Part shown: positions 522-17,582 of the stretch, in pieces
Layout: each line of letters starts with the position of its first letter
Numbering within the stretch: position 1 is the stretch's first letter
NCBI RefSeq assembly: GCF_015552075.1
Contig: NZ_JADNDZ010000110.1
Coordinates: 1 to 47,973, forward strand
DNA: 47,973 nt
Direction of reading: 5' to 3'
Source: Collinsella aerofaciens
Lineage (GTDB): Bacteria > Actinomycetota > Coriobacteriia > Coriobacteriales > Coriobacteriaceae
Notes under the pieces: generated by a model
What the model was told of the DNA's origin: nothing
Database searches by the model: none
The model's input: only the letters and a program-made list of their open reading frames with translations
Made by a program: the position numbers and the translations under genes

Positions 522-1172
522 CTACTGTTCCTCACGCCGCTGCCGCTCGATCCATTTTTGGACACCGAGGCAGGCGAGGGCATTGGCTAGGCTCGCGCTC
601 ATACCATCCGGCCGGTCGTAGCCGATATGATCGGCCACATCAGTCAGCTCAATATGTGCGAGGCGATTGTAGTTACGATTCGTCTCCCCGAGCCATTGAC
701 AATATTCATACATCGTATCTGTGACCCTGGCACCTGAGGCGGGCGCAGCGTCGTTGTGTCCCAGGAACCTCATGACGCATGAAGCGTTATAGACGATAAC
801 CTCGTCTGCGCCCCAGATGATCTCCCTGATCTTTAACTGGTCGTCGAAAAAGGAGGGGAGGCCCATCTGGTTGTCGGGGGTCACCCCGTTGACCTCAGAT
901 GCCGCCTGCCACAGCTCCCTGGAATCGGGCTTGTATTTCCCCTCATGGACCGCATTTCCCGCCCAGTCCACGATCGCGATGGCCACGATCTCATCTTCAA
1001 CGGGGTTGGGCCCCGTCGTTCCGAGGTCCAGGCAGACAACCTTCGGGGCCCGCGCCTCGAAATAACCCGTCATCATGCCGTCGAGCCGGCAGCGAAGCAC
1101 CGGATTCTTTCTGAACGAGCGCGCAAGAAGCTCGATCTCGTCGGCCGATCCGGTTACACGCACGCATGCCAT
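522..1172 (-). CDS. DEDD-exonuclease-like protein with lost catalytic residues
   Basis: 216 residues, ATG at 1172 behind AGAGGA. The fold signature of DnaQ-type (DEDDh) 3'-5' exonucleases is visible: KVVCLDLGTTGPNP (residues 44-57), SEVNGVTPD (92-100), VYNASCVMRFL (127-137) and SASLANALA (192-200). In active enzymes the first motif is DxE, the second holds Asp, and the last is HxxxxD. Here only D49 remains: the Glu is G51, the second Asp is C132, and the His and Asp are S192 and N197. The intact relative at 44218-44826 has every one of these residues. It is therefore probably a catalytically dead paralogue that may bind nucleic acid or a partner. An extra N-terminal segment of about 40 residues precedes the fold. 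Confidence 0.7.
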   Translation of the reverse strand: MACVRVTGSADEIELLARSFRKNPVLRCRLDGMMTGYFEARAPKVVCLDLGTTGPNPVEDEIVAIAIVDWAGNAVHEGKYKPDSRELWQAASEVNGVTPDNQMGLPSFFDDQLKIREIIWGADEVIVYNASCVMRFLGHNDAAPASGARVTDTMYEYCQWLGETNRNYNRLAHIELTDVADHIGYDRPDGMSASLANALACLGVQKWIERQRREEQ

Positions 1173-2275: not shown

Positions 2276-2370
2276 AAGAAAAAGCCCCATACGGGGCGGC
2301 CTGTTAAGGCAGTTTGTGGCTTTTAAGCCGTATTTCGACTTAGGTACTGCGCTTCGAGCAGCAACTCACA
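2276..2370 (-). ncRNA. tracrRNA of the type II CRISPR-Cas system
   Basis: Read leftwards from about 2370 this stretch has every part of a tracrRNA. The anti-repeat (2367-2333) is the reverse complement of the CRISPR repeat. It pairs with repeat segment AGGTAC.GCGCTTCGAGCAG and, across a bulge, with TTCG. The bulge on the tracr side is AAGU, as in the well-known S. pyogenes duplex. Then come a nexus-like hairpin (GGCUUAAAAGCC), a second stem (GCCUUAACAGGC) and a terminator hairpin GCCCC-GUAU-GGGGC (2297-2284) ending in UUUUUCUUU. A -10 element TATAAA (2381-2376) fits a transcript of about 95 nt. It runs divergently from cas9 and overlaps the cas9 leader. Confidence 0.88.
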
Positions 2371-2375
2371 ATCCT

Positions 2376-2397: not shown

Positions 2398-5300
2398 ATG
2401 GCCAGGAAACTTAAAAATATCAACGGTCCGTGGTATGCCGGAATCGACCTCGACGGCACGAGCGTCGGGTTCGTGGCCACAGACGAGTACGGGGAGGTCC
2501 TCTACCATAAGGGCCAGCCCGTGATGGGCGCACGCTGCTTCAAGGAGGCGCTCCACGCCTCCGAGGCCCGTATGCCGCGCACGGCGAGGCGCAGGCTCCA
2601 GCGCGCACGTGGCAGGGAGCGCGAGATGGAGCGCATCTTCGCCCCGGCGATCGCGCCCACGGATCCGGATTTCTTCGTCAGGCGCAGGATTTCCTACAAG
2701 CTCATGCGCGACGATATCGCGGCAGATCCCGCCGCCGCCGCATGGCAGGGGCTTCTCGACGGCTATCCCACGCTCGCGCACCTCGACGTCGACCTCATGG
2801 AATCAGATACCCCCCGCGACCCAAGGCTTATCTTCTGGGCCGTCGCCAACCATGTCGTGCGACGCGGCCATTTCCTCATGGAGGGCCATGACGTGACGTC
2901 GGCGAACTCAGACCCCTTCGCTCAGGTCGAGGCCCTCGTGCGCGAGCTCGACGCCCTGGGGGAGGTCTGCGGCGAGGCTATCGAGCTCGACGGTGGCGCG
3001 CTTGCCGATATGGGCGGCTCCTGGACGGCACGCGAGCTCCAGAAGGCCGTGTCCGGCGCCGTCTCGGTGGCGGGCGACGATATCGACGCCAAGATAGCAC
3101 GCGTTCAGGCAAAGGCGCTGGGCGACCTCGTCGCCGGCTACAAGGCGAACATGGGCGCCTTCGCCCTTGAGGGCGAGCAGATCGGCAAGGTTTCCGTGTC
3201 CGATGCCGACGCGCTCGACGAGTTCCTCGCCAACTGCCCCGACCGCCTCGCCCCGACTATCGAGGCCGCGAGGGGTCTCTACTCGGCATGGCGTCTACAG
3301 GGCCTTCTCTCGTTTGCGCCCGGAAAGACCCTCTCGCACAACCAGGTGGCCCAGTACGAGGTGTATGGGCGCCAGCTGCGCACCCTGAAGGACCTCGCGC
3401 TGAAATATATCGTCCGCGCGGATTCCGCAGACGGTCCCGACGAGGACGGCCTCGCCCTCTATAGGGACTTCTTCGGCGGCCCCAAGAGGTCGGGGCGCGG
3501 GGGGTACGACAAGGTGCTCGTGAAGAAGCTCGACGGGGCGAAAAGGAACATGGGCTATACGGCCTACGACCTCAACGTGATTCCCTACGAGGAGTTCAAG
3601 AAGAGGGTCGAGAGGCTCTTCAAGGGCACGGATGCCGTAACGGACCCAGCCTACGTCGATATGGTCGCCGCCCTCGGCGAGCACAGGTTCCTACGCCGTA
3701 TCCACACCGCGGACAACAGCGCGATTCCCTACCAGCTCCATGCGGAGGTCGTGGGCCGCATCATCGACAAGCAGGGCAGCTTCTACCCTTGGCTCAAGGA
3801 CGCAGGCCCCCATATCCTGAAGGTGCTGACCTCGAGGATCCCGTACTACGTCGGACCGCTGGATTCCTCGGCCGCACCAGTGGACGCACACGGCAAGGCG
3901 AGGTTCGCGTGGTCGCGCCGTCTTCCCGGCCACGAGCGCGCCTTCGTGGCTCCCTGGAACTACGAGGAGCATATCGATACTGATGCGGCCGCAGAGGCCT
4001 TCATCCGGCGCATGACGGGCAAGTGCACCTATCTGGTGGATGAGGACGTGCTCCCGGCGAACTCCCTCATCTACGAGCGTTTCCGGTTCCTGAACGAGCT
4101 GGCGGGAATCCGCTACACCGAGGACGGCCAGGACTGGCTTCCGCTCGATGCCGCGATGAGGCGCTCTGTTGTCGAGGCCGCATCGGACGGGTCGGTCATG
4201 ACCCTCAACCGGATTGAGAACATCCTCTCGCGCGACTTCACGATGGCTCACCCCCACGTCAAGGGCGTATCCGACGCCAAGAGGATGACGTCGCGCCTGT
4301 CCGTATCGGCCTGGATGGCAAATCTTCTCGGCGTGAAGACACTCACTGCGGCCCAGAAGTCCATGGCAGAGGACCTTATCCTTTGGAATACCGTGTTCGA
4401 GGAGCGCTCCATCCTGAAGCGCAAGATCGCCAAGGAATACGGGGACGTCCTTGACGAGGAAGCCATCGACGCCTTTTGCGCGAAGCGACTCAAGGGCTGG
4501 GGCCAGCTCTCCGAGCGGCTGCTGACGGGCGTGTGGGCCGAAACCGCGCGCGGCGACATGTGTATCATGGACGTCCTCGAGCAGGGAGCGCCCTACGGCA
4601 GGTTCCGCGGCGCGTCCATGAACCTGATGCAGGCCTTAAGCGATACCGAGCTCGGCTTCCGCGCAAAGATCGACGAGGCCAACGCAGCCGCGCTGGAAAA
4701 GGCCGGCGAGCTCGGCATCGACGCCCTGCCCGGGTCCCCGGCGCTTCGTCGCGGCGTCTCGCAGGCCATGAAGGTTATCGAGGATATGGTTTCGGTGGCA
4801 GGTTGTGCCCCGGCCAAGGTCTACGTCGAGGTCACGAGGACCGCATCGAACAAGTTGAAGGGCAGGAGGTCGCGAAGCCGCGCCCAGGAGATCGAGGCCG
4901 CTCTGAAGGCGCTTGACGAGGACGCGCGCCGCGACCTGGATGCCGCCAGGCTCCTACGCGAACTGGGGATGTTCGACGAGAAGGAGATCAACGAGCGTCT
5001 GTACCTTTATTTCAAGCAGGCGGGAAAGAGCCTCTACTCCGGCAGGCCCATCGATATTGCGCGCATCGCATCAGCCGACTACTGCGTCGACCGCATCCTT
5101 CCCAGGTCGGTGCGCAAGGACGAATCACTCGACAACAAGGTACTGGTCTTGTATGCCGAGAGCCTTGATAAGAAGGAGTCCATCATCGTGCCCCGGCCCG
5201 TCCAGAGGAAGATGGCGCCGTTATGGATGCACCTGCGCCGCGTGGGCCTCATGACCGAGCGCAAGCTCAACGCGCTCATGAGGACGCAGATCTCGGAGAG

Positions 5301-6591
5301 GATGCTGAAGTCGATCGTCGGGTGCCAGCTGACAGAGACGAGCCAGGAGTGCAAGCTCATCGCCGCGGTCCTCGAGGCCACCTACGCGGGCGTCAAGGTC
5401 GTGCCCGTGAAGGCCGGCGTCGCCAGTTCGGTCAGGAGGCGCGCGGGAATCCCGAGAAGCCGCAAGGCCAACCGCTACTACCACGCACACGATGCCCTGA
5501 TCGCTCTCACGACCGGCAGGTTCATCGAGACGAGGGCGCCCATGTGGTCGAACAACAGGGCCTTCTACGAGCGCACCATGCGCGATATCGAGGTACAGGA
5601 GCGCTGGGGCGGGGCGGACTCCGAGCTCGACTTCTTCTCCGGCGGCTTCTTCCGTGACCTCGTGGACTATGACACGGCCGAAGTGCTGTGGGATTCCGAT
5701 TTCGAGCGCGAGAGGCTCATCCGTGCCTGCTCCTGGAAGAACCTACGCGTGACGTTTGCCCCCTACGAGGAGGGCGGGGCCTTCTGGAAACAGACCGTCT
5801 ACTCCCCGCGCGACTCGAAGACGAAGCTCATTCCCGTGAAGGGAGAACGCGACGCGGCCCTGTTTGGCGGCTACTCCGCCCAGACGTTCGCCTACTTCAT
5901 GATCTACGAGAGCGAGGGCAAGAAGGGAAATCTATTCAGGTTCGCCCCCGTGCCCACGTCCATCGCGTCCAAGGCCACCGATTCGCTCACCGAGCTCTAT
6001 GCGCGCTCGCTGTGCCGCGAATCAGGCGAGAGGTTCATCCGCGTCGTGCGCGACAGGATCCTTAAGGAGACCGTGTACGAGGCATACGGGGAGCGTTTCA
6101 GGATAAAGGGCCAGAAGACCGCCGGTCCCGTGCGCCAGCTCGCCCTCGACGCCACCGACACCCTCCTGCTCAGAATCGTCGAGCGCATGGTGGACGGCGA
6201 GCAGCCGAGCCCCAGACGCGATCTCGAATCCGATGCCCAGGTCCTCTGCCGGCTGTGGGCACGCCTTCTCGAGCTCGCTCCGGCAAACTTCCCCCGCGTC
6301 TCTAAGGTGCTCAAGCTGGGCGCCCTGAAGACGCCGGAGGAGGTGTTCTCCGATGCGGAAGCAGACGATATCGCCAAGACCGTCCGAGCGGTAGCGGAAT
6401 CCGAGGTCCAGGTCGTGGAGCTCCTATCCGGCATCAGGGGCACCGCCGACGTGAGGTCCATCGGCGGCAGCGCGTTCGCGGGCACGCTCTCGATGACCTT
6501 CGATAAGATCGTCAACGACCCCAAGGCGGGCTTCGCCATCGTGGACATCTCCGCGGCGGGCCTTCACGAGAGGGTTTCCACCCTTGGGTAA
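2398..6591 (+). CDS. cas9: Cas9, type II-A, with a degenerate HNH site
   Basis: 1,397 residues; ATG at 2398 behind AGGAGA. RNA-guided DNA endonuclease of the CRISPR system. Parts visible: RuvC-I AGIDLDGTSVG with D17; arginine-rich bridge helix RTARRRLQRARGRERE (about 62-77); RuvC-II KVYVEVTR with E811; HNH region 890-930; RuvC-III YYHAHDALIAL with H1029 and D1032; then about 365 residues of PAM-interacting region. In the HNH segment YCVDRILPRS...DESLDNKVL aligns with YDVDHIVPQS...DDSIDNKVL of S. pyogenes Cas9. The catalytic His840 position is R899 (codon CGC at 5092-5094), and no Asn lies in residues 917-930 where Asn863 should fall (Ser/Leu instead). D898 is kept. RuvC thus looks active and HNH inactive. 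The family's usual second Gly in RuvC-I is Asp19. The gene overlaps cas1 by 8 nt and heads the cas operon. Confidence 0.97.
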   Translation: MARKLKNINGPWYAGIDLDGTSVGFVATDEYGEVLYHKGQPVMGARCFKEALHASEARMPRTARRRLQRARGREREMERIFAPAIAPTDPDFFVRRRISYKLMRDDIAADPAAAAWQGLLDGYPTLAHLDVDLMESDTPRDPRLIFWAVANHVVRRGHFLMEGHDVTSANSDPFAQVEALVRELDALGEVCGEAIELDGGALADMGGSWTARELQKAVSGAVSVAGDDIDAKIARVQAKALGDLVAGYKANMGAFALEGEQIGKVSVSDADALDEFLANCPDRLAPTIEAARGLYSAWRLQGLLSFAPGKTLSHNQVAQYEVYGRQLRTLKDLALKYIVRADSADGPDEDGLALYRDFFGGPKRSGRGGYDKVLVKKLDGAKRNMGYTAYDLNVIPYEEFKKRVERLFKGTDAVTDPAYVDMVAALGEHRFLRRIHTADNSAIPYQLHAEVVGRIIDKQGSFYPWLKDAGPHILKVLTSRIPYYVGPLDSSAAPVDAHGKARFAWSRRLPGHERAFVAPWNYEEHIDTDAAAEAFIRRMTGKCTYLVDEDVLPANSLIYERFRFLNELAGIRYTEDGQDWLPLDAAMRRSVVEAASDGSVMTLNRIENILSRDFTMAHPHVKGVSDAKRMTSRLSVSAWMANLLGVKTLTAAQKSMAEDLILWNTVFEERSILKRKIAKEYGDVLDEEAIDAFCAKRLKGWGQLSERLLTGVWAETARGDMCIMDVLEQGAPYGRFRGASMNLMQALSDTELGFRAKIDEANAAALEKAGELGIDALPGSPALRRGVSQAMKVIEDMVSVAGCAPAKVYVEVTRTASNKLKGRRSRSRAQEIEAALKALDEDARRDLDAARLLRELGMFDEKEINERLYLYFKQAGKSLYSGRPIDIARIASADYCVDRILPRSVRKDESLDNKVLVLYAESLDKKESIIVPRPVQRKMAPLWMHLRRVGLMTERKLNALMRTQISERMLKSIVGCQLTETSQECKLIAAVLEATYAGVKVVPVKAGVASSVRRRAGIPRSRKANRYYHAHDALIALTTGRFIETRAPMWSNNRAFYERTMRDIEVQERWGGADSELDFFSGGFFRDLVDYDTAEVLWDSDFERERLIRACSWKNLRVTFAPYEEGGAFWKQTVYSPRDSKTKLIPVKGERDAALFGGYSAQTFAYFMIYESEGKKGNLFRFAPVPTSIASKATDSLTELYARSLCRESGERFIRVVRDRILKETVYEAYGERFRIKGQKTAGPVRQLALDATDTLLLRIVERMVDGEQPSPRRDLESDAQVLCRLWARLLELAPANFPRVSKVLKLGALKTPEEVFSDAEADDIAKTVRAVAESEVQVVELLSGIRGTADVRSIGGSAFAGTLSMTFDKIVNDPKAGFAIVDISAAGLHERVSTLG

Positions 6592-7471
6592 GACGCTCTT
6601 CATAGAGAACGCCCGGAAACTGCGCTATGAGGCTGGATGGGTCGCCGTTCACCGCGGCGGCGACCCCCGCCCCGTTCTGTTACGGGCCGACGAGCTCGAC
6701 TGCATCGTTATCGACGGGAAGGCCGCGTTCATATCGACCTACCTGATCGATGAGCTCGCGGCAAGGGGATGCAGCGTCATCCTCACCGATAGCCGGCATA
6801 TGCCGGCATCAATCCTGATGCCGCTAACGGGAGCAACGATCGACACGAACGGCAAAGTCCTCGCGCAGATGTCATGGGGCGCCTGGCCGCGCAAGATGCT
6901 GTGGAAGAAGATCGTCGAGTGCAAGCTGGATAACCAGGCCTCCGTCCTCGAAGGGTCGGGCCATGAACAGGAGGCCGAGCTGCTCGCGTCCTATGCGGGA
7001 GAGGTCCGCGCGGACGATTCGACCGGGCGCGAGGCCGCCGGGGCCCGCCGCTATTTCCAGGCGCTGTTCGGTACCGGTTTCGTCCGGGCACCGCACGCGG
7101 ACGCGACCAACAATGCCCTCGACTATGGTTATTCCATCCTGCTCTCGCATACAGCGTGCAGGATCGCGGCGAAGGGCTATCTCAACCAAGTCGGCATCCA
7201 CCATCACTCCAAAACAAACCCCTACAACCTCGCCTGCGACCTCATGGAGCCGTTCAGGCCACTGATCGACCGGAAGGTCGAGCTGGAGCGTCCCTGCGAG
7301 CTCACGCCGTCCGTGAAGAGGTTCCTTGCGTCCACACTCGCGGACAGGATCCCCTATGGCCATGGGAGCTACCGGGTGTCGGACGTCATCGACCTTTGGG
7401 TAGATGGGTGCCTTCGGGTGATGGAAGGGACTGGCGATGTGGATGGGATCTCGACGCCCGGAATGCCTTGA
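6584..7471 (+). CDS. cas1: Cas1 integrase (type II-A)
   Basis: 295 residues, TTG start at 6584 overlapping the cas9 stop, so translation is probably coupled. With Cas2 it forms the complex that inserts new spacers at the leader end of the array. The metal-binding residues of type II Cas1 are present: E150 in GREAAGARRYFQALFG, H207 in GIHHHSKTNPYNLACDLMEPFRP, and E222 in the same motif. Length fits the type II family (about 290-300). No damage is visible, so spacer acquisition could still work even though the partner Cas9 has an altered nuclease site. Confidence 0.96.
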   Translation: MGKTLFIENARKLRYEAGWVAVHRGGDPRPVLLRADELDCIVIDGKAAFISTYLIDELAARGCSVILTDSRHMPASILMPLTGATIDTNGKVLAQMSWGAWPRKMLWKKIVECKLDNQASVLEGSGHEQEAELLASYAGEVRADDSTGREAAGARRYFQALFGTGFVRAPHADATNNALDYGYSILLSHTACRIAAKGYLNQVGIHHHSKTNPYNLACDLMEPFRPLIDRKVELERPCELTPSVKRFLASTLADRIPYGHGSYRVSDVIDLWVDGCLRVMEGTGDVDGISTPGMP

Positions 7472-7496: not shown

Positions 7497-7805
7497 ATGA
7501 GGATAATCGTCATGTATGACCTCCCCGTAGCCGATATGCAGGACCGCCACGAGTACTCGAGGTTCAGGCAGTTTCTTGTCAGGGACGGCTATACGAGGCT
7601 GCAGAATTCCGTCTACACCCGCCTGGCAGTGGACTCCAAGAACGCCGAGGCGGCGATCTTGCGCCTCAAGGCCAACATTCCCGAAGCCGGGCTGGTGCAG
7701 GTGCTCAGGGTATCCGAGATTTCCTTCTGCTCGATGCTCACGCTTTGCGGAAGCCCGTCAGACGAGGGGCACCTTGTTACCGGAGAGGATTTCATCGTCT
7801 TATGA
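7497..7805 (+). CDS. cas2: Cas2 (type II-A)
   Basis: 102 residues, ATG at 7497 preceded by GGGGGAGG. It starts MRIIVMYDLPV, the first beta-strand of the ferredoxin-like Cas2 fold with the conserved Asp (D8), and has the usual SVYTRLAVD and LVQVLRVSE strands. It acts as the dimeric core of the Cas1-Cas2 integrase. The longer open frame from 7437 only overlaps the cas1 end and has no ribosome site. The stop codon overlaps the csn2 start (ATGA). Confidence 0.95.
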   Translation: MRIIVMYDLPVADMQDRHEYSRFRQFLVRDGYTRLQNSVYTRLAVDSKNAEAAILRLKANIPEAGLVQVLRVSEISFCSMLTLCGSPSDEGHLVTGEDFIVL

Positions 7806-8476
7806 TCGTCAAGCTTGAAACGATAGGGGAGACTATCGATTTACCGGATGGGCTCGGAGTCATTTCCTTCGATGATTTCGACGGACTATCGCGATGCGCA
7901 AAGTCGCTTTTGGGGGAAGGGGAGCCTGGAATCGCCCTATACCGCGGGGAGAGAAAGATCAAGCCGAAGGATATCCTCCTTATCGACAGCCTGATCGAGC
8001 TCCCATTCGAAGACCGGAGGCTTATCGGCGCCTACGCGTCGAGGATGGCTGCCGAGGTCGAGGCCTATGAGCCCCTGGCGACCAAGGCACATGAGATCAG
8101 GATGTTTGTCGACGAGCTGATTGCAGAGTTGGGGGCTTCGCTTCGAACGGATCCGATAGGGGGCTCGGAGCGGGATATCAAATCATTCGCCAAATGGCTT
8201 TCGCTGACACCGCGCCGTGAACCGGGCAGTACCCTGCTCAGGAGATTCCTCTCATTCATGGATTACGTTTGCGATACGGGGCTGAGTCCGTCAATTGCCG
8301 TAATCGGCCTTATCGACAAACTCAATCCAGCTGATGTTTTGGAGATAACCCGAAAGGCGCGGCATGAGGGTCTGGAATTGCTGTTCCTCGAATATCGGGA
8401 GACGAACGCAACCGATCCCGAGATTCCGGTGTGGCATATAGACAGAGACGGGGTTCTCTTCTCCCGCACCGCTTAA
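7802..8476 (+). CDS. csn2: Csn2, adaptation protein of type II-A
   Basis: 224 residues, ATG at 7802 overlapping the cas2 stop by four bases. Position as fourth gene after cas9-cas1-cas2 and length (about 220) identify it as Csn2, the tetrameric ring that binds DNA ends during spacer acquisition and defines subtype II-A. Sequence features fit: N-terminal strand-rich part (MIVKLETIGETIDL), a LLIDSLIELPFEDRRLIGAYASRM helix region, and a C-terminal LIDKLNPADVLEITRKARHEGLELLFLEY stretch typical of the family's ATPase-like fold without a Walker A. Identification rests on context plus this general pattern; the family is divergent. Confidence 0.88.
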   Translation: MIVKLETIGETIDLPDGLGVISFDDFDGLSRCAKSLLGEGEPGIALYRGERKIKPKDILLIDSLIELPFEDRRLIGAYASRMAAEVEAYEPLATKAHEIRMFVDELIAELGASLRTDPIGGSERDIKSFAKWLSLTPRREPGSTLLRRFLSFMDYVCDTGLSPSIAVIGLIDKLNPADVLEITRKARHEGLELLFLEYRETNATDPEIPVWHIDRDGVLFSRTA

Positions 8477-8524
8477 ACCGTTAAACTGGTGTGAGCACCT
8501 TGAAATCTCAAATAAGGCTTATTG

Positions 8525-8569
8525 CTTGACAGCCCGGTTGTCCGACGATCCGGTAGCTGTCAGGTTTTT
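8525..8569 (+). terminator. terminator after the cas operon
   Basis: TGACAGC (8527-8533) pairs with GCTGTCA (8556-8562), with CCGG...CCGG able to pair inside the loop, followed by GGTTTTT. It begins about 50 bp after csn2 and would end the cas9-cas1-cas2-csn2 transcript before the leader. Confidence 0.7.
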
Positions 8570-8582
8570 CCAGAACTCACAC

Positions 8583-8616
8583 AACCATCCTGTTTCCGGG
8601 CGGAAATAGGATGGTT
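8583..8616. terminator. second strong hairpin before the CRISPR leader
   Basis: AACCATCCT (8583-8591) pairs with AGGATGGTT (8608-8616) and TTTCC (8593-8597) with GGAAA (8602-8606), leaving a loop of four bases and one unpaired base on each side of the internal step. A short TTT follows. It may back up the previous terminator or insulate the array promoter. Confidence 0.55.
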
Positions 8617-8713
8617 TCCCAAAATCGTCGGAACCTTTTCTTTCTTTAAATCAACTTTTCAGCTTCAGTAGCTGCTCTTATGTTGGCGCTTGCCAGCCGA
8701 TGCCGATTCTCCG
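8617..8713 (+). promoter_or_regulatory. CRISPR leader
   Basis: 97 bp between the hairpins and the first perfect repeat. It is AT-richer than its surroundings (CTTTTCTTTCTTTAAATCAAC), as leaders are, and should hold the array promoter and the Cas1-Cas2 integration signal. No clear -35/-10 pair could be picked. It is the leader side because the first eight repeats are uniform apart from one truncation, whereas decay increases with distance from it. Confidence 0.65.
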
Positions 8714-10639
8714 GCTTCGCAGGTACCGCGCTTCGAGCAGTTACTTGCCCCTATTCGCCGCCTTTGCCGCGCAGAGCGCGCTTCGCAGGTACCGCGCTTC
8801 GAGCAGTTACTTGCCATCGCAGCGCTGTTGCCGCCCTGCAGCTGGGCTTCGCAGGTACCGCGCTTCGAGCAGTTACTTGCCCATCGAGCGCGTCAACGAG
8901 AGGGCCAAGGCGCTTCGCAGGTACCGCGCTTCGAGCAGTTACTTGCCCAATCTCCTCGTCGTTGTATTCACCGATATGCTTCGCAGGTACCGCGCTTCGA
9001 GCAGTTACTTGCCTGCTGGGAACGTCTAACGGAAGCAGCTCCCGCTTCGCAGGTACCGCGCTTCGAGCAGTTACTTGCCGGCTGAAATACTGGAACTACG
9101 GGCAAGCGGGCTTCGCAGGTACCGCGCTTCGAGCAGTTACTTGCCTGACGTCGCCGAGGTTGATCACGGAGTCGCGCTTCGAGCAGTTACTTGCCCTCGT
9201 GGTGCTCGCGGGCACCCCTAAAGTCGCTTCGCAGGTACCGCGCTTCGAGCAGTTACTTGCCGTTCTGCTCGTCCATCATACGCGCAAAATGGCTTCGCAG
9301 GTACCGCGCTTCGAGCAGTTACTTGCCTGTTGGTCGACTTCTTCCGCTGCTATATGCGCTTCGCAGGTACCGCGCTTCGAGCAGTTACTTGCCGGTCAAC
9401 CGGACCAACATGAGCCAGGAGATGCTTCGCAGGTACCGCGCTTCGAGCAGCTAATTGCCAACGGGCAGATACAGCCATTCGTCCTCGGTGCTTCGCAGTT
9501 ACCGCGCTTCGAGCAGTTACTTGCCTCCCCGAGCACACGATGTGATAGACCGTCGGCTTCGCAGGTACCGCACTTCGAGCAGCTACTTGCCTGATATAAA
9601 GTAAATGCCTGACCAGCTGAAGCTTCACAGGTACCGCGCTTCGAGCAGTTACTTGCCTGAACAATTGCACCATAGGAGGAATTGGGAATTTCACAGGTAC
9701 TGTGCTCGGAGCAGTTACTTAGCGATCGCGCTCGTTAATATACGTGCGATGGCGCTTCGCGGGTACCGAGCTTCGAGCGGTTTCTTGCCGGGCTATGTTC
9801 CATTGGAACGCTCCATATGCTTCGTAGGTTCCGCGCTTCTAGCAGTTACTTACCGCTGAATCCACTTTTCTTAAATCTCTTAATACTTCGCAGGAACTGT
9901 GCTTCGAGCAGTTGCTTGCCAGGATTCATCGACTGTACGGTATGGTTGCTGACTCGCAGGTACTGCGCCTCGAGCAGCTACTTGCCCCTCCAGATGGGCC
10001 CGCTTCTCACCCGCGAGCTTTGTAGGTGTCGCGTTTTTTGCACTCGCCTCCCGCTGTCAAGAGAATCAGAAGGCGCTCGTGGTCCTCGAGAAAACGACAC
10101 GTCAAGCATCGACATATCCAACTTTAACGTTTGCAGAATCATGCGCTTCATAGATACCTCACTTCGAGCAGCCGCTTGCTCGGAGCTCCTTAATTCGAGA
10201 GGGGTATACTTCGCAGGAAATGCACTCCGAGCAGCCGCTTACCGGAACGGCCCCCAGCTTATTTAGCACATACGCGGCAATAGCACAGCGTTTCGAGTAG
10301 ATACTTGCTGCATATCAATGCGGTTTGTCTGCTCGATGCGTTTCGTAGGCAACTCACTTCAATTTGTTTCTTGTCTTCTCCCGCCCTTGACGGAAAGCGA
10401 CATGAGCTTCATAGGCATCGCGCTTCGAGCAGCTGCTTACCATTTTTCCGAAAAGGAAGATGACGGGATGCACTTCGCCGAGACCGCGCTTCGAGCAGAT
10501 ACTCATTCTGTTGCGACGAGCAGTGCGACTGTAACGGGCCTCGCAGGCACCGCGCCTCGAGCAGTATCTTTCCTCAGGTGTATGGCGTTGGCTATCTGGT
10601 GATGTTTCGCAAGTACTGTATTTCGATCGGCAATTATAT
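8714..10639 (+). CRISPR. CRISPR array, 36-bp repeats, 30-bp spacers, decaying distally
   Basis: Repeats of 36 bp begin GCTTCGCAGG and end GTTACTTGCC, with a 66-bp period and spacers of 30 bp. Starts: 8714, 8780, 8846, 8912, 8978, 9044, 9110, 9176 (truncated), 9226, 9292, 9358, 9424, 9490, 9556, 9622, 9688, 9754, 9819, 9885, 9951, 10017, a badly decayed one near 10083, 10144, 10208, 10274, 10340, 10406, 10472, 10538, 10604. Repeats are identical up to 9358 (except the 20-bp copy at 9176). From 9424 they drift: 1-2 changes at first, then 7-10 or more by 10144 and beyond. Spacer length stays at 28-30 bp, so the phase is kept. Repeat orientation matches the tracrRNA anti-repeat. No spacer was seen by eye to match elsewhere in the window. 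Confidence 0.97.
9176..9195 (+). repeat. truncated CRISPR repeat (20 of 36 bp)
   Basis: This unit lacks the first 16 bp of the repeat and starts directly at the internal GCTTCGAGCAG. The repeat contains GCTTCG twice, 16 bp apart, so the loss is explained by a deletion between these short direct repeats. Flanking spacers (9146-9175 and 9196-9225) are both a normal 30 bp. The missing part is the half that forms the lower stem and the start of the upper stem with the tracrRNA. Confidence 0.9.
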
Positions 10640-10842: not shown

Positions 10843-10914
10843 TAGGCCTTATTTTGAGTAAACACGACTACAGAATTAAATATGAGTTCCCATGCCTGTA
10901 TCGAGGAGGCTCCC

Positions 10915-11724
10915 GTGTCTTTTGGCGTCAGATTGGCGACCATATTAGCCGTCGGCTGCGGCTTTTGGTGCGCCTCCCATCTTTATCAGCGTTGGCGCTA
11001 CGCCGCGCTGGAGCATGAGGACAAGGCCATGCTCCAGGCACGACCCGGTGACGCCGATAGGGATAAATGGATTGACGCCGTGAAGAGGGAGGCAGTTAAT
11101 TACGGCGTCAGCCCCTCGACACTCATTTCCCTGGGGAGTAAAGGATGTATCGGCGCGGAGTTATCCATGCTTGGCGACACCGGAGCATACCTCCGCCATC
11201 ATAACCCTCCCTTGGCCTCAGAAATCGCCCTTGTCTACCCTTACCTGTTAGCCTCATGGGTGGGAACGCTCATCTCGGTTCCCTACGCGGTCTTGCTGGC
11301 GACCTCTGTGGCGCTTGGGCAGGAGGACATGAGATTCAGGATTGCACCGGTGCCCATGCTGCTCCTCTTTGCGGCCTCGGGCGCCGTGTCGTCCCCCTGG
11401 GGACCATATAAGTGGGCGATAATCACCGTTCCCTGCGCCGCCGTATTCGCGTTGATTTCATTTGCCATGAAGCGTATCGGGGGCATCTCCTGGCACGCCG
11501 GCGACTATCTCACACTTGCCATCGCCCTCATGACCGTGCTGTCCGTCGGAACGGTGTTCGAGTTTCTCGCTATCCACCTTCTATGCGCGTGCGCTCTTGA
11601 GCTTGCCATCAGGTTCATTCCCGCCTGCGCGCGCCTCAAAGACAACGTCCCCTATAACGCCGTGCTGTCGGTAAGTCTGGTCGGGGCGACGCTAATCGCA
11701 ATCTTGAAAGGTAATCTGCTATGA
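10915..11724 (+). CDS. tadV: TadV/CpaA-like prepilin peptidase
   Basis: 269 residues; GTG at 10915 chosen because GAGGAGG stands 5 nt before it (an ATG at 10882 has none). A polytopic membrane protein with about six to seven hydrophobic segments. The two aspartates of A24 prepilin peptidases can be placed: the Asp in GQEDMRFRIAPVPM, matching the D-x-R-x-R-x-I-P motif, and the Asp in WHAGDYLTLA, matching GxGD. A C-terminal VPYNAVLSVS resembles the VPFGPAL ending of the family. It is longer than typical TadV (about 150-180) because of a soluble segment near residues 30-85. It would process Flp and the TadE-type pilins. The stop overlaps the next start by 4 nt. Confidence 0.7.
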   Translation: MSFGVRLATILAVGCGFWCASHLYQRWRYAALEHEDKAMLQARPGDADRDKWIDAVKREAVNYGVSPSTLISLGSKGCIGAELSMLGDTGAYLRHHNPPLASEIALVYPYLLASWVGTLISVPYAVLLATSVALGQEDMRFRIAPVPMLLLFAASGAVSSPWGPYKWAIITVPCAAVFALISFAMKRIGGISWHAGDYLTLAIALMTVLSVGTVFEFLAIHLLCACALELAIRFIPACARLKDNVPYNAVLSVSLVGATLIAILKGNLL

Positions 11725-12170
11725 GGTCAAGACCAACAGAACTCAGGGCGGTCATGGTGACCCAGCTCGTCCTTCTACTCCCCATCATGATCGCAATGCT
11801 CGCACTCGTCGTGGATTGCGCGAACCTGAGCCGATGCAAGGCCCTCGCATCGGCGGCCGCATCCGAGGGGGCGCGCTACGCCGCAGCGAACCCCGATAAG
11901 AATGATTCTGAAGTCGAATCCTACGTAAGGGGCGCTATCGGTCTCGATAGCAGCTGCACTGTGGATATCGAGCGCGGCGCGCTTTCGTCCAAAGGCGTGA
12001 AGCTAAGGGTTGGGGACAAGTCCAGGGACTCTTCAATAGAGCGCAAGTCCGTCACGGTCAATGTCCAGATTCCATGCCGCCGCGTATTCACCCTGGCCGT
12101 CTTCGATGGCCTTGCGGAAATTGAGCCCGAGTCATCCTCGGCAACGGCAATCTCATCGGAGGTCAAGTGA
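11721..12170 (+). CDS. tadE: TadE-like minor pilin
   Basis: 149 residues, ATG at 11721 overlapping the previous stop. A short basic N-terminus (RSRPTELRAV) leads into one membrane helix LVLLLPIMIAMLALVVD (about 16-32), then LSRCKALASAAASEGARYAA, the usual TadE sequence in which Ala-rich residues continue the helix. The remaining 90 residues are a small secreted domain with two cysteines (in SSCTVD and IPCRRV) that may form a disulfide. TadE-type proteins are pseudopilins that initiate or regulate Flp pilus assembly. First of three such genes in a row. Confidence 0.78.
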   Translation: MRSRPTELRAVMVTQLVLLLPIMIAMLALVVDCANLSRCKALASAAASEGARYAAANPDKNDSEVESYVRGAIGLDSSCTVDIERGALSSKGVKLRVGDKSRDSSIERKSVTVNVQIPCRRVFTLAVFDGLAEIEPESSSATAISSEVK

Positions 12171-12643
12171 TGGTGCGTAACAGAAGGTCGCTCGAGGCGC
12201 TCATCTCCACTGAATTCATCTTCGTATTCCCGATAGCGCTCACCGTCGTCCTCGCCATATTGGGCTTCGGGTTCACGGGCTACCAGCGAGCCAGGATTGA
12301 TTACTCCCTCGCACATCTCGCGGACCGACTTCCCGCAGGCTGGGATTCTATGGACGCCGACACGCTCGTGAAGAAGCTCGTAAGCGCATCGGCCGACATT
12401 GACCCAAGCTGTCTCACGGTAAAGAACGCCTCGGTCAACATCGATTCCGATGAGAACCTCGGCCACGGAAACGCCGTCGCAGGTGATTTGGGCACCGAGA
12501 ACCTCAGGACCGAGGACAGGACCGTAGCGGTGTCGGCTGAAATCACGTACGACTACCCGGCGCCCTACAACGTGTTCGGAAAGAGATCCGTCCGAAACAT
12601 CACGCGTTCCTACATCAGCTATTCCGATTGGGAGGTCATCTAG
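12170..12643 (+). CDS. tadF: TadE/TadF-like minor pilin
   Basis: 157 residues from ATG at 12170, which shares a base with the preceding TGA and has CGGAGG 7 nt upstream; a GTG one codon earlier is possible. N-terminus RNRRSLEALISTEFIFVFPIALTVVLAILGF is a type IV-pilin-like helix with a Glu (STEF) near its start, as in TadE/TadF. The exported part contains DPSCLTVKNASVNI and ends ITRSYISYSDWEVI. Probably forms the pilus tip or base with its two neighbours. Confidence 0.72.
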   Translation: MVRNRRSLEALISTEFIFVFPIALTVVLAILGFGFTGYQRARIDYSLAHLADRLPAGWDSMDADTLVKKLVSASADIDPSCLTVKNASVNIDSDENLGHGNAVAGDLGTENLRTEDRTVAVSAEITYDYPAPYNVFGKRSVRNITRSYISYSDWEVI

Positions 12644-13237
12644 ATGAAGTGCCACGCACTCAGGGGAGGGGGAGCCCGCGCGCAGCTCACATCCTTTTTC
12701 GTCGTGATGCTCATCCCCTTATCCCTCCTCATAGCGCTCGCCGTAGACCTGGGAGGAGCTCTCGCATATAGGACATGGCAGGGGTCGCTTCTCGAGAGCA
12801 CGAGGCAGTCTTGCTTCGGTGAGGCCAATGCCGTCAAATACGCCGAGAACCCGGGGGATGAGGCGCGCTCCGAGGTTCTCGAGATGCTCAAGGCCAACGG
12901 TTACACCGGAAAGGCCACGGTCTATTATGTAGAGGCCCCTGAAAGCCTTTGCGGGGCAGCCGATCGCTACGCAGGCGTCTATGTGGTCCTTGAGGGAACC
13001 TGGCCGTCGACTTTCGCGAGATTCGCCGGCATCGACGAGCTGAAGGTGCGCTCGGACGCCGTCTGGACCCTACATCCCTATTCGTCCACGACGGTGTGGC
13101 GACCGGCCGATACCGGTAACGGCTGGTGCGAGTACACGATCGACAAGGAAGGTGTCGTTTCGACTAAAACGGGAGCCTGCTCTCTCGACGATGCACCCGA
13201 AATTCTCTCCGAGGCCGTGAGGGACATGCTTCCCTGA
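12644..13237 (+). CDS. tadG: TadG-like pilus assembly protein
   Basis: 197 residues, ATG directly after the previous stop. RAQLTSFFVVMLIPLSLLIALAVDLGGALAYRTWQ is the N-terminal membrane anchor of TadE/TadG proteins, followed by LLESTRQSCFGEANAVKYAENPGDEARSEV. It then continues as an exported domain with four cysteines. It is much shorter than proteobacterial TadG, which carries a von Willebrand domain that is absent here. Last gene of the operon that starts at 10915. Confidence 0.65.
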   Translation: MKCHALRGGGARAQLTSFFVVMLIPLSLLIALAVDLGGALAYRTWQGSLLESTRQSCFGEANAVKYAENPGDEARSEVLEMLKANGYTGKATVYYVEAPESLCGAADRYAGVYVVLEGTWPSTFARFAGIDELKVRSDAVWTLHPYSSTTVWRPADTGNGWCEYTIDKEGVVSTKTGACSLDDAPEILSEAVRDMLP

Positions 13238-13550
13238 TCGTCAGACGGCAACCGCCAGCCAACACGCCATAGCGCGCCATATTGTCACCCAATGGCACCA
13301 AATCGCCCTGCGCAGATCGTCGCGCGGGGCGATTCTTTATATGTCGGAATAGTACGTCAGGCCGAAGAGCCCTCGGGCCCGATGTACGACCCGATGCGTC
13401 AGAGACCGGTCTGCTCAACAAAAAAGGCTTTCGAGATGGTTTGTGCGGGAGGGGGGGAAGTGCAGCCAGTATCACCTGGCACTGGAGTGCGAACCATTTT
13501 CCACCGCTCGCGTTTAAGGGACTCCTAGGTCCCAGGAAGGAATCATAGAG
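13238..13550. other. intergenic region before cpaB
   Basis: About 310 bp with no convincing gene. It holds copy 3 of the shared 20-bp site (13283-13302), a possible -10 (TTTATAT, about 13336) and, just before the cpaB ribosome site, a small palindromic hairpin GGGAC-TCCTAG-GTCCC (13518-13533). The leader from the predicted start to the ATG at 13551 would be about 200 nt, long enough for post-transcriptional control. Confidence 0.45.
13283..13302 (+). promoter_or_regulatory. shared 20-bp regulatory site, copy 3 (before cpaB-tadABC)
   Basis: TGTCACC-CAA-TGGCACCAAA. GATTCT follows 29 bp after the site, at the same distance as in the copy at 21406 (-). The operon start codon is about 250 bp downstream. 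Confidence 0.75.
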
Positions 13551-13561
13551 ATGAAAAAAAA
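13551..13561 (+). other. ATG followed by eight A: probable true cpaB start, one base out of frame
   Basis: ATG at 13551 has AGGAAGG 10 nt upstream and is followed by A8. In the sequence as given it runs into a stop at about 13683. If one A were skipped it would read MKKRTQEEIRAEIAQVDSEM and join the CpaB frame at its ATG 13609 without a stop. That extension has the same charged, helical character as the residues that follow it. Either slippage on the A tract (transcriptional, translational or phase-variable) or a sequencing error is likely. Confidence 0.6.
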
Positions 13562-13608
13562 GGACCCAGGAGGAAATAAGGGCAGAAATCGCCCAAGTCG
13601 ATTCGGAA

Positions 13609-14502
13609 ATGCGCACGGCCATCGACTCCGGGCGCATGCGCAGCGTCGAGCGGCTCCGCGGGCGCAAGCAGGCGCTCGGCCATGAGCTGGAGCGCGCCAT
13701 GGCGCAGGAGGCCGCCATGGGGGCGACCACGTCGACGCAGATGCCCGCCGCGGCCCCCAAACCCGCACAGGGCGGCCAGAGGACCACGTCAACAGCAGGC
13801 GCCTCGACCGCCCGCAGGCAGCGCGGACCGGCAGCCGGGGGAACGCGTAAGGACCGAAGGCTCGCCGCCGTCGCCGGCGTGGCGATCGCCGTCGCAGTCG
13901 TGACGGTCGGTTTCTCGGGCTGGCGATGGACACAGGCGCAGGGCGAGCTCGCGCGTCTCGAGAAGTCGACTGTCAAGGTAGTCACCGTCACGCGCGATGT
14001 CGCCCCCGGCGAAGTTATCACTTCGGCAGACCTTAGGGTCGCAAGCGTGCCCACGGCGTTTGCGCCCAAGGACGCCGCGAAGAAGTTATCCGATGTCGCC
14101 GGGCGCCAGTCCGTCACACAGCAGACCTCGGGAACCGCCGTCTCGCTCTCATCGGTCTCCGGCTCAAAGAAACCCGCTTCCATCACCACCGCCGTAACCG
14201 AGGGCCACGTTGCCTATACCGTCGCGCTCGACAGCTCAACGGGACTTTCCCCGCTGCTCTCGGTCGGCGACAAGGTCGATGTTCTCGCGAGCGTGAACGA
14301 CGGCCAGGTCGTGAGCAGCGTGCGCGTGGCCGACTCCATTCGCGTACTAGCGCTCGACGGCAATCTCTCGGGTTCCAAGTCAGACGGCTACTCCAACGTC
14401 ACAATCGAGGTAACTGAGGACCAGGCCCTCGCCCTTTCAAGCGCGAGCGGCATCCGACTCGTGGCCCTTCCCGAGACGGGGGAGGTGCAAAATGCTGAAT
14501 AG
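13609..14502 (+). CDS. cpaB: CpaB/RcpC-like pilus assembly protein
   Basis: 297 residues from ATG 13609, but that ATG lacks a good ribosome site and the protein probably begins at 13551 (see the A8 feature). Order: charged helical N-terminus (MRTAIDSGRMRSVERLRGRKQALGHELERAM), Ala/Pro/Gly linker, membrane helix LAAVAGVAIAVAVVTVGFSGW (about 85-105), then a SAF-like domain VKVVTVTRDVAPGEVITSADLRVASVP and an RcpC C-terminal domain ending LSSASGIRLVALPETGEV. In Gram-negatives RcpC works with a secretin; here there is none, so it is probably a cell-envelope guide for the pilus. An unusually long cytoplasmic N-terminus. Overlaps tadA by 11 nt. Confidence 0.8.
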   Translation: MRTAIDSGRMRSVERLRGRKQALGHELERAMAQEAAMGATTSTQMPAAAPKPAQGGQRTTSTAGASTARRQRGPAAGGTRKDRRLAAVAGVAIAVAVVTVGFSGWRWTQAQGELARLEKSTVKVVTVTRDVAPGEVITSADLRVASVPTAFAPKDAAKKLSDVAGRQSVTQQTSGTAVSLSSVSGSKKPASITTAVTEGHVAYTVALDSSTGLSPLLSVGDKVDVLASVNDGQVVSSVRVADSIRVLALDGNLSGSKSDGYSNVTIEVTEDQALALSSASGIRLVALPETGEVQNAE

Positions 14503-15793
14503 CGATCTGCTCGGCATCGAACGCGAGGCCGTCCGTCAGGCGACGGGAATCCTGACCGCCGCCAACGATGCCTCCGAGAGCGATGTGCAGCGCGACTCGC
14601 GCGCCCGCGACCTTCTTGCCGAGATTATTGATTCCAGTCCCGAGGGGTCGCGTCTGGACGACGACTCCTTTAACGCCGTGATCCAGGCCGGGCTCAACGA
14701 CCTATATTACCTGGGACCCATCGAGGAGCTGCTTCCGGATACGTCGATCTCCGAGATCATGGTGAACGCCCCGGACGATGTGTGGGTTGAGCGTGCAGGA
14801 CTGCTACAGAGGGTCCCCGTAGCCTTCGAAGACGACGAGCATGTAAAGTTCATCATCAATCGCATAGCGTCAGCCGACGGTCGCCGTTGCGACGAGGCGC
14901 AGCCGCTGTGCGACTGCATCCTGAACCGCCCCGGCGCGATATTCAATGGCTCCCGTGTCGCGGCGACCGCAAAGGGCATCGCCGTCGACCACAACATTCT
15001 CAACATCCGTAAGTTTCGACCGGATGCGGTGGAACCCGAGGACCTCATGGCCCTCGGCACCTTCGACCAGCGCATGCTCGAGTTCATGGAGGCGATCGTA
15101 CTCGGCCGAATGAACGTCGTCATCGCAGGCGGCACCGGTTCGGGCAAGACGACGCTCCTCAACGCCTGCTCGTCCTTCATCCCGGACAACCAGCGCATCG
15201 TCACGATCGAGGATGCGCCCGAGCTGCGCCTCCAGAAGCCCCATGTCGTGCGCAAGACAGCTCGCCGACCCAACATCGAGGGCGAGGGCGAGATCACCAT
15301 CCGGCAGCTCGTGATTCACGCGCTGCGCGAGCGCCCCGACCGAATCGTCGTCGGCGAGTGCCGCGGCGGCGAGGCGTTCGACATGATCCAGGCGATGATG
15401 ACAGGCCACGAGGGCTCGCTCACGACCGTCCACTCCTCCAACGCGCGCGAGGCCATGACTCGCCTGCGCTCGATGATCCAGCAGACGGGAACGGAGATGC
15501 GAAGCGAGCAGATCATGGAGCTCATCGCCTCGGCTATCGACTTCGTCATTTTCGTCAACCGCTACGATATCGACGGCTCGCGCAAAATTACCGAAATCGC
15601 CGAGGTCCAGGGCATGCAGGGCGACGTCATCACCATGGGCACCATCATGCGCTTCGAACAAACGGGCTTTTCCGAGGACGGCAAGGTGCTCGGAGAGTTC
15701 ATGCCCACCGGAGAGCGCATCACCCCGGCGCACCGCGAAAAGCTCTTCGCGCGCGGCGTGTACATCGATGACGATTTCTGGTTCCGTCGATGA
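14492..15793 (+). CDS. tadA: TadA/CpaF pilus assembly ATPase
   Basis: 433 residues. Hexameric secretion ATPase that powers Flp pilus assembly. Motifs: SISEIMVNAPDDVWVER in the N-terminal domain, Walker A GGTGSGKTT (about 213-221), Asp box VTIEDAPEL, Walker B RIVVGECRGGEA and His box TGHEGSLTTVHS. Length and order match CpaF-type enzymes. It starts inside the end of cpaB and its stop overlaps the tadB start (ATGA), so the genes are translationally coupled. Confidence 0.95.
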   Translation: MLNSDLLGIEREAVRQATGILTAANDASESDVQRDSRARDLLAEIIDSSPEGSRLDDDSFNAVIQAGLNDLYYLGPIEELLPDTSISEIMVNAPDDVWVERAGLLQRVPVAFEDDEHVKFIINRIASADGRRCDEAQPLCDCILNRPGAIFNGSRVAATAKGIAVDHNILNIRKFRPDAVEPEDLMALGTFDQRMLEFMEAIVLGRMNVVIAGGTGSGKTTLLNACSSFIPDNQRIVTIEDAPELRLQKPHVVRKTARRPNIEGEGEITIRQLVIHALRERPDRIVVGECRGGEAFDMIQAMMTGHEGSLTTVHSSNAREAMTRLRSMIQQTGTEMRSEQIMELIASAIDFVIFVNRYDIDGSRKITEIAEVQGMQGDVITMGTIMRFEQTGFSEDGKVLGEFMPTGERITPAHREKLFARGVYIDDDFWFRR

Positions 15794-16692
15794 GCGGGCA
15801 GATTTCCCCGGCAGCCCTCCTTCCCGCGCTGCCGGCGGTCCTGATGGGAATAATCCTGTTCCTGACGGCAAGAAAGCTTCGCATCGAGCGTGAGCAGTCA
15901 GAAGCCGGCCCCCTTCCGGAGAACCCCTCCGGTAAAGATGGGGGCAACCGCCTTTCCGGCGCCCTGCGACGCGTGTGCCAGGGCGCGGCACCCCAGCTCT
16001 CCACCACCGAGGCGGCACAGCTATGGGCGGTAGTTGCGTTCGCGCCATCGGTCTTTATCCTTGCAATGGGCTCGACAGCGGGGGCGGTTGCCGCACTCCC
16101 GCTCGGTATCGCGGCCTTCCCGATCTGGGTGAAGACGAAGCGTGGTGCCGAACAGGGCCTTTTCGAAGAGCAGCTCGGCCAGGCAATGCCGCTTATCGCA
16201 TCGAACCTTCGAACGGGAGTCTCGATCGCGCAATCGGTGGCACCGGTCGCCGAGCACATGGATGAGCCCCTGAAGTCGGAGTTCGCCATCCTTGAGCGCG
16301 ACCTTAGAAACGGACGCCCCATCGACCAGGCGCTCGACGATATGGCAAAGAGGACCAAAAGCTCCAACCTCAGGCTCTATTCAACAGCCGTATCGGTATC
16401 GCAGCAGACAGGCGGCTCGCTTTCCGAGATCACGGAGCGTGTTGGCGAGGCCATCAGGGCAAAGGTCAAGGCGAAGCGCTCGGCCGAGGCCAAGACCTCC
16501 TCGGCACGGTTCGAGGCGAAGATCGTCGGCTTCGCGCCGATCGTCATGCTGCTGCTCATGTCGCTTGCCTCGGAAATACACCGGCAGTTCTTCATGACGC
16601 CTGCGGGGTGGGCGTGCCTGGGCGTGGGCATAGCGCTCGATATCATCGGTTTCATGGTGCTGAAGCAAATTAGCAACATCAGGTACGACTAG
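15790..16692 (+). CDS. tadB: TadB inner-membrane platform protein
   Basis: 300 residues. A type II secretion F-domain protein: an N-terminal membrane segment (LLPALPAVLMGIILFLTARKL), a hydrophobic pair around 80-115, the cytoplasmic F domain EEQLGQAMPLIASNLRTGVSIAQSVAPVAEHM...FAILERDLRNGRPIDQALDDMA, and two C-terminal helices (GFAPIVMLLLMSLA, CLGVGIALDIIGFMVL). Forms the membrane platform for the TadA ATPase together with TadC. Ten bp separate it from tadC, which has its own GGGGAG ribosome site. Confidence 0.92.
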   Translation: MSGQISPAALLPALPAVLMGIILFLTARKLRIEREQSEAGPLPENPSGKDGGNRLSGALRRVCQGAAPQLSTTEAAQLWAVVAFAPSVFILAMGSTAGAVAALPLGIAAFPIWVKTKRGAEQGLFEEQLGQAMPLIASNLRTGVSIAQSVAPVAEHMDEPLKSEFAILERDLRNGRPIDQALDDMAKRTKSSNLRLYSTAVSVSQQTGGSLSEITERVGEAIRAKVKAKRSAEAKTSSARFEAKIVGFAPIVMLLLMSLASEIHRQFFMTPAGWACLGVGIALDIIGFMVLKQISNIRYD

Positions 16693-16702
16693 GGGAGCTC
16701 AG

Positions 16703-17572
16703 ATGTTCGAATCAATAACAACTGGCTTCATTATCATCCTCATCGGAATCGCAGCGGGCCTCGGAGTGGACATCGCCCTCAAACGTGTCTTCGGCCTAGA
16801 GCAGCCTGCGGAAGAGGACGCCTCCCCGGCGCTTCCCGGAATCGCCGACAAGCTGTCCAACGTTGTCTCCAGGCTCGCACCCATTTCACGCACCGTAATG
16901 GACTCGACGCGTGACTCCCTCGACCGCGCCGGTTCCACCATGCAGCCGGCGACTTTCTGGGCCTTCCGCGTCGCGAGCGCCGCGGGATTTACGGCGGCGG
17001 GACTCGTCGCGTCGCTTTTCGTCGGCGGGGCAAAGGGTCTTGGCATTTTCGCCGCGCTGGCGCTCACGGGAATCGCCATCCCGCAGCTGTGGCTTTTGAA
17101 TGAGCGCGCGAAATGGCGCGACGAGCTCGACCGACAGCTTCCCGACGCCCTCGATCTGCTCGCAATCTGCATGTCGGCGGGCTCATCTATCGATTTCGCC
17201 CTGCACACGGTCGGCAGCAAGATGGACGGCGCCATCGCGCAGGGCTTCGAGCGAGTGGCCAACGAGGCCAGCTTCTCATCGCGAACCGAGGCGCTCCTTC
17301 GCTTCGCAGAGCGAGCCCGCGTGCCGTCCCTCACGATCTTCGCGGCCTCGTTTGCGCAATCCGAGCGCGCGGGCGGATCTCTCGTCGACATCATCCGCGA
17401 CCAGGCGGAGACGGTTCGCGAGCAGCGGCGCCTGAAGGTCGAGTCGGAGATCGAGAAGCTCGGTACCAAGATGCTCTTCCCGATCATCCTGTTTATCCTT
17501 CCGGTGTTTCTGATCGTCGTCCTCGCCCCCGTGTTGGCCCAGATCGCGCAGACGTTCACCTCCCTCATGTAG
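16703..17572 (+). CDS. tadC: TadC inner-membrane platform protein
   Basis: 289 residues, second F-domain protein. N-terminal membrane helix TTGFIIILIGIAAGLGVDIAL, a helical pair around 95-130, then DELDRQLPDALDLLAICMSAGSSIDFALHTVGSKM and FAQSERAGGSLVDIIRDQAETVREQRRLKVE, the signature of TadC, and final helices MLFPIILFILPVFLIVVLAPVLAQIAQTF. Pairs with TadB. The gene order tadA-tadB-tadC is the canonical one. Confidence 0.92.
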   Translation: MFESITTGFIIILIGIAAGLGVDIALKRVFGLEQPAEEDASPALPGIADKLSNVVSRLAPISRTVMDSTRDSLDRAGSTMQPATFWAFRVASAAGFTAAGLVASLFVGGAKGLGIFAALALTGIAIPQLWLLNERAKWRDELDRQLPDALDLLAICMSAGSSIDFALHTVGSKMDGAIAQGFERVANEASFSSRTEALLRFAERARVPSLTIFAASFAQSERAGGSLVDIIRDQAETVREQRRLKVESEIEKLGTKMLFPIILFILPVFLIVVLAPVLAQIAQTFTSLM

Positions 17573-17582
17573 GAGAAGGTCC

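Follow-up and report, generated by a model that had tools for sequence, protein, structure and literature searches.

Can a type II-A CRISPR (clustered regularly interspaced short palindromic repeats) system go on working after its Cas9 has lost the catalytic residues of the HNH nuclease domain? This question is raised by the cas9 gene of contig NZ_JADNDZ010000110.1 from Collinsella aerofaciens, a gut bacterium. The window, that is, the whole stretch of DNA analysed here, is this entire contig of 47,973 bases, which comes from a 2.32 Mb Collinsella genome. Its cas9 gene (2398..6591, plus strand) is an open reading frame (ORF) of 1397 amino acids, which matches TIGR01865 at 630 bits and the Pfam families Cas9_REC, HNH_4, Cas9_RuvC and Cas9_PI, and appears HNH-inactive. 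With a probability of roughly 0.6, we consider this a type II-A system that underwent an ancestral loss of HNH catalysis and retained Cas9 as a guided DNA-binding protein that cuts, if at all, only the non-target strand. Such a Cas9 would probably block or nick its targets rather than cut both strands.

Loss of the HNH catalytic residues

We aligned the window Cas9 with S. pyogenes Cas9 (SpCas9) and found that its HNH motif reads YCVDRILPRS. A preliminary description of this DNA had proposed that the general-base histidine is replaced by arginine, and the alignment confirms this: Arg899 (codon CGC, 5092..5094, plus strand) stands at the position of SpCas9 His840. The same description had reported the third HNH residue, Asn863 of SpCas9, as missing. 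This also holds, as the position of this metal ligand is taken by Ser922 (codon AGC, 5161..5163, plus strand), and the nearest asparagines, N913 and N958, fall outside residues 917-930. Both the catalytic histidine and the catalytic asparagine that a double-strand endonuclease Cas9 requires are absent. Two other HNH residues are kept, with D898 and N913 aligned to D839 and N854 of SpCas9.

To find a different His/Asn pair, we searched the HNH domain region (residues 836-992, 4903..5373, plus strand). The sole histidine in this region is H945 and the only asparagines are N865, N913 and N958; none is suitably placed, and an alternative catalytic pair was rejected. The HNH fold is predicted to be kept although the catalytic residues are lost: an AlphaFold2 model built with 41 related sequences has a mean pLDDT (predicted local distance difference test) of 91, and its best match in the PDB is SpCas9. 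Furthermore, cas9 is the single Cas9 match in the window's own genome. A second, active Cas9 elsewhere was rejected after a search of that genome found none.

The same substitutions in a second genome

Whether Arg899 is a change in a single strain or the property of a clade had been raised in the preliminary description, and we compared both HNH positions with relatives from the class Coriobacteriia. Position 899 is histidine in 46/46 and position 922 asparagine in 47/47 of the readable class relatives. The only exceptions are the window and a homologous locus, L002, in a second Collinsella genome (G004, C. aerofaciens contig NZ_JADMWW010000008). The L002 Cas9 has the identical arginine and serine at the two positions, with the arginine encoded by CGT instead of CGC. 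A sequencing slip was rejected because this independent genome has both residues and a different arginine codon. By this comparison, the HNH loss is a trait of a lineage with two genomes and not a change in a single strain.

The two Cas9 proteins are 94% identical, and the first 8.7 kb of the window is 92% identical to L002 at the nucleotide level. The ratio of nonsynonymous to synonymous substitution rates (dN/dS) between them is 0.10 for the whole gene, 0.14 for the HNH core and 0.06 for RuvC-III; no other part of the protein is as constrained as RuvC-I and RuvC-III. Together with open reading frames free of stops and frameshifts, these values led us to reject a pseudogene.

The tree places the pair within the type II-A Cas9s of Coriobacteriia, as expected of a type II-A Cas9. 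A contig scan of 84,980 species, which reaches close relatives only, returned a single relative, L002. No Cas9 relatives were found among viral contigs, and no close ones in the phage and plasmid collections, where the best matches were 24-30% identical.

Adaptation genes and arrays

Downstream of cas9, on the plus strand, lie cas1 (6584..7471; dN/dS 0.14, with conserved active-site Glu, His and Asp), cas2 (7497..7805; dN/dS 0.12) and csn2 (7802..8476; dN/dS 0.20). The csn2 product matches PADLOC Csn2 with an E-value of 6e-18, and its NCBIfam score is 32.4 bits against a cut-off of 35. A leader region (8477..8713, plus strand) extends from csn2 to the first repeat of the CRISPR array (8714..10573, plus strand), which contains 28 repeats of 36 nt and 30-nt spacers. 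Just upstream of cas9, we identified a putative trans-activating CRISPR RNA (tracrRNA) on the minus strand (2277..2374, approximate ends) with an anti-repeat, a nexus-like stem, a hairpin and a terminator. It is predicted to pair along the repeat in a co-fold, and is conserved in L002; an Rfam search of the window gave no matches. The order cas9-cas1-cas2-csn2, the tracrRNA, the leader array and the 3' protospacer-adjacent motif (PAM) described below are those of type II-A.

The L002 array has 33 repeats and 30-nt spacers, none of which is shared with the window array. Within each array, the repeats next to the leader are identical, but their sequence is not the same in the two genomes, and the distal repeats are degenerate. 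Together, these features indicate repeated acquisition since the two loci diverged. The earlier statement that cas1, cas2, csn2, the tracrRNA and the leader-proximal repeats look intact is borne out by purifying selection, the co-fold and the repeat identity. Judged from these genes and arrays, the system is not a relic and its adaptation is live. As separate observations, one spacer is present twice in L002 (spacers 10 and 13, 14947-14977 and 15145-15175), and the window array includes a shortened repeat-spacer unit at 9146-9195.

Protospacers and their PAM

To place the spacers, we compared both arrays with phages, plasmids and 43 Collinsella genomes, using the contiguous array stretch as the query and allowing up to 5 mismatches. 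We placed 17 distinct protospacers. In their 3' flanks, position 3 is A in 16/17 (binomial p 3e-9 against 0.25) and position 4 is a purine in 17/17. The motif NRAR fits 13/17 protospacers. It is a consensus, as some of the 17 protospacers are mismatched and an invertible site was counted in its fitting orientation only. An exact match to a 24-nt piece of spacer 2 was not found among viral contigs.

Mobile elements are the targets of over half of the spacers that could be placed. Their targets are the relaxase gene of the Collinsella plasmid NZ_OY725719, a DnaB-like helicase, a TraG/VirD4 coupling protein, an integrase and a small element. Other targets are chromosomal. The gene for an 869-amino-acid secreted protein is matched by window spacer 4 and, roughly 1 kb away, by L002 spacer 25. 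An operon of loaP and a sugar transferase, adjoining thrS, is likewise matched by both arrays, by window spacer 5 in the 3'-terminal part of loaP and by L002 spacer 19 in the loaP promoter. We also found matches to an FctA-type surface protein (L002 spacer 5, on a stretch of nine Gs close to the gene start, L105:6822-6852), a SpaA-type surface protein (window spacer 19, 3 mismatches) and a lactate permease (L002 spacer 8). The nine-G run is a possible slippage, or phase-variation, tract.

The loaP promoter region (L119:10899-11060, with equivalents in L099, L112, L055, L080 and L064) lies upstream of an operon with a NusG/LoaP-like antiterminator. It contains an invertible promoter segment of about 110 bp between GTACAGGTTTTT and AAAAACCTGTAC, which occurs in both orientations among Collinsella genomes. 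L002 spacer 19 overlaps the first repeat arm, and its protospacer has the 3' PAM AGAG only when the TATAAT box points to loaP; otherwise the flank reads ATCT. In both genomes with an HNH-dead Cas9, the loaP promoter sequence ends abruptly beside the protospacer and gives way to similar, unrelated sequence (L108 6640-6718 and L180 1-60, contigs C67 and C59 of the window's own genome, and L101 1-92 in the second genome). This suggests the insertion of a mobile element there.

Taken together, these data point to the following mechanism. Cas9 with its tracrRNA would read the NRAR PAM, and Cas9 and Cas1-Cas2-Csn2 would continue to add spacers to the array, with Cas9 guiding spacer choice. According to a review, Cas9 catalysis is dispensable for type II-A adaptation (PMC6546361). 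The complex of Cas9, CRISPR RNA and tracrRNA would then bind DNA in a PAM-dependent manner, and its effect would be either occupancy or a nick in one strand. Plasmids and conjugative elements would be nicked, or their transcription or replication would be blocked by the bound complex. Chromosomal spacers would be non-lethal and persist because no double-strand break follows; some persisting self-spacers lie on surface genes, which they could repress. We infer the occupancy or nicking, the missing double-strand break and any repression.

Several points weigh against this explanation. The stem leading to the Cas9 pair is very long, at 2.94 changes per site, and the HNH-dead protein is carried by two genomes only. 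Tolerance of self-targets can also be explained by anti-CRISPRs or low expression. The role of Cas9 may be confined to adaptation, and both expression and activity of the HNH-dead protein are predictions.

Possible nickase or DNA-binding protein

If HNH catalysis is lost, any remaining activity would depend on RuvC. The preliminary description had called the RuvC site intact, and this holds for the catalytic tetrad, D17, E811, H1029 and D1032, which is present. It does not hold for the conserved neighbours. In RuvC-I (2446..2457, plus strand), the catalytic Asp17 is followed by Asp19-Gly20 where other relatives have Gly-Thr, and in RuvC-III (5479..5493, plus strand), Tyr1028, an invariant histidine in relatives, precedes the catalytic His1029 and Asp1032. 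In SpCas9 numbering, G12, T13, W18 and H982 correspond to D19, G20, F25 and Y1028 in both the window and L002. The bridge helix had also been described as intact, but one of its conserved residues differs: R75 of SpCas9 is A70 in both proteins.

One possibility is a true nickase, whose active RuvC site would nick the non-target strand, so that plasmids and phages would be lost at replication while chromosomal nicks would be ligated. This is consistent with the intact tetrad, with the strong constraint on RuvC-I and RuvC-III between the two genomes, and with the plasmid and conjugative-element genes among the spacer targets. However, nicking activity is a prediction, and the neighbours of the site carry G12D, T13G and H982Y. 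The Cas9 may instead be fully dead because the residues flanking the RuvC site, Gly12, Thr13 and His982, are changed. In that case, both sites would be inactive and the protein, a natural dead Cas9 (dCas9), would only bind, like the nuclease-inactive type V effectors. The loss of the HNH residues and the aspartate beside the RuvC Asp, at a position that is glycine in 46/46 other readable relatives, are in line with this. Nuclease-dead type V-C and V-M effectors, moreover, interfere through a transcription block (PMC12669027). Yet a pure binder would have no need of the four metal ligands, all of which are kept, or of the purifying selection on RuvC-III. Each of the two, both of them special cases of the explanation proposed above, remains a tentative proposal; they are about equally likely and indistinguishable by sequence.

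Chromosomal targets and possible gene regulation

A cutting Cas9 that faces a perfect self-target with a PAM normally leads to cell death or to the selection of mutants. In the second genome, we found a perfect self-target (30/30, PAM AGAG) some 100 bp beyond the thrS stop codon (G004:C31:93-122). A second one, with one mismatch and the PAM CGAG, lies in the gene of the 869-amino-acid protein and is matched by that genome's own spacer 25. This gene (L177 / G004:C11:192344-194942) is broken by an in-frame TAG and split frames. For comparison, no self-targets were found among the 125 spacers (84 and 41) of two HNH-intact Collinsella arrays, for which 5 protospacers were placed, two of them beside phage-like genes; this control is small, and its genomes stand further from the sampled set.

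The preliminary description had mentioned gene regulation as a possible function. That chromosomal surface loci are targeted and self-targets are tolerated agrees with it, although regulation as such is a hypothesis that we regard as unlikely. In its strict form, Cas9 would be a dedicated host gene regulator whose array mainly represses phase-variable surface loci, such as a capsule promoter and adhesins. Two chromosomal loci, the 869-amino-acid protein gene and the loaP operon with its invertible promoter, are matched independently by both arrays, and the poly-G tract of the FctA-type protein is covered by L002 spacer 5. By our own arithmetic (3 and 4 chromosomal spacers, a 2.3 Mb genome), about 0.01 coincidences within 1.1 kb are expected and 2 are seen. 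This convergence is unlikely under random sampling of the chromosome, but acquisition hot spots would also produce it, and tolerated acquisition from such hot spots would give a pattern equal to that of regulation. Furthermore, the predominance of mobile elements among the targets and the mixed strand orientation of spacers relative to genes do not fit a regulator, and good self-targets are missing from the window's own genome, where the site in loaP is mismatched at 4 positions and the 869-amino-acid gene is absent.

A broader form would be natural Cas9-based CRISPR interference, in which a nuclease-disabled Cas9 with live, PAM-selecting adaptation and spacers against both mobile elements and phase-variable surface loci, such as an invertible capsule-type promoter and a poly-G adhesin, provides this gut commensal with heritable, updatable silencing. 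We hold this, too, to be doubtful.

Decay of the locus, with interference gone and the remainder kept by drift, is still less probable. The window Cas9 deviates at 83/328 near-invariant columns, clearly above every other relative, which relaxed selection along the stem would produce. However, the tip-to-tip dN/dS of 0.10, the lack of stops and frameshifts, the identical leader-proximal repeats, the complete turnover of spacers and the shared PAM all argue against drift. Finally, it is highly improbable that another nuclease makes the second cut in trans, such as a small HNH protein encoded about 2.2 kb upstream of cas9. In both genomes, an ORF with a complete HNH motif, VDHIKP, does lie upstream of cas9, but other genes intervene, the protein looks membrane-anchored and its partnership with Cas9 is hypothetical.

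Genomic surroundings of the locus

The locus had been placed on a conjugative element. Conjugation genes are indeed found on the contig (TraG/VirD4 at 41055-43025 and a TrbL-like gene at 39201-40877), and the cas locus might move with them. The contig also encodes a 2105-amino-acid SNF2-type helicase with an N6-methylase domain (24377-30694, minus strand). The cas locus itself lies between a Flp/Tad-type pilin-like ORF (1475-1717) and a Tad/type II secretion-like cluster (10882-19465; T2SSE, T2SSF), which looks like an insertion into a pilus locus.

Two further genes are shared with L002. The small HNH endonuclease, which has a hydrophobic segment at its N-terminus, is found at 1-173 of the window, where it is cut by the contig end, and at 5278-5766 of L002. 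A DEDDh/DnaQ-like exonuclease homologue (window 522-1172, minus strand; L002 6115-6765; PADLOC DEDDh, E-value 1.6e-12) has DLG in place of the D-x-E motif, and its other acidic residues appear lost. Its dN/dS of 0.64 is probably a sign of relaxed selection.

Comparison with known systems

The window system resembles type II-A, as known from SpCas9 and the Coriobacteriia relatives, in gene order, tracrRNA, leader array, 3' PAM and domain layout, and its Cas9 is about 35-40% identical to the class relatives. It differs in that the HNH base and metal ligand are lost, the RuvC neighbours and one bridge-helix arginine are changed, the repeat is divergent and self-targets are tolerated. IsrB is an HNH-less, RuvC-containing, RNA-guided protein, ancestor-like to IscB and Cas9, in which only cutting of the non-target strand would be left, as may hold here. 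IsrB lacks the HNH domain entirely, whereas the window Cas9 keeps a domain that is predicted to fold. Type II-C2 phage Cas9, which has a dead RuvC and an active HNH site, no array and a proposed anti-CRISPR role (PMC12669027; PMC10910872), is likewise a natural Cas9 with one inactivated nuclease site. Here, in contrast, the HNH residues are lost, the RuvC tetrad is kept, and adaptation genes and an array are present, which sets the window system apart from type II-C2. With the nuclease-inactive types V-C and V-M and with type IV-A, it would share, by analogy, RNA-guided interference without cleavage through a transcription block, although the effector families are unrelated.

The engineered H840A nickase and dCas9 are mutated at the identical residue; the window Cas9, unlike these, is natural, has an additional Asn-to-Ser change and is kept by selection. 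In the open-licence literature, we found no precedent for a natural nickase or for a naturally inactive or HNH-dead cellular Cas9. Nuclease-dead effectors are known in types IV and V, and a cellular Cas9 that keeps adaptation after HNH loss is apparently undescribed in that literature. If the proposed explanation is true, the Collinsella protein would be a natural counterpart of the hand-engineered enzymes and may supply a nickase or binder of natural origin that uses an NRAR PAM. It would also make it possible to test directly whether Cas9 immunity works without a double-strand break, and would bear on the persistence of self-targeting spacers and on CRISPR as a gene-regulatory memory.
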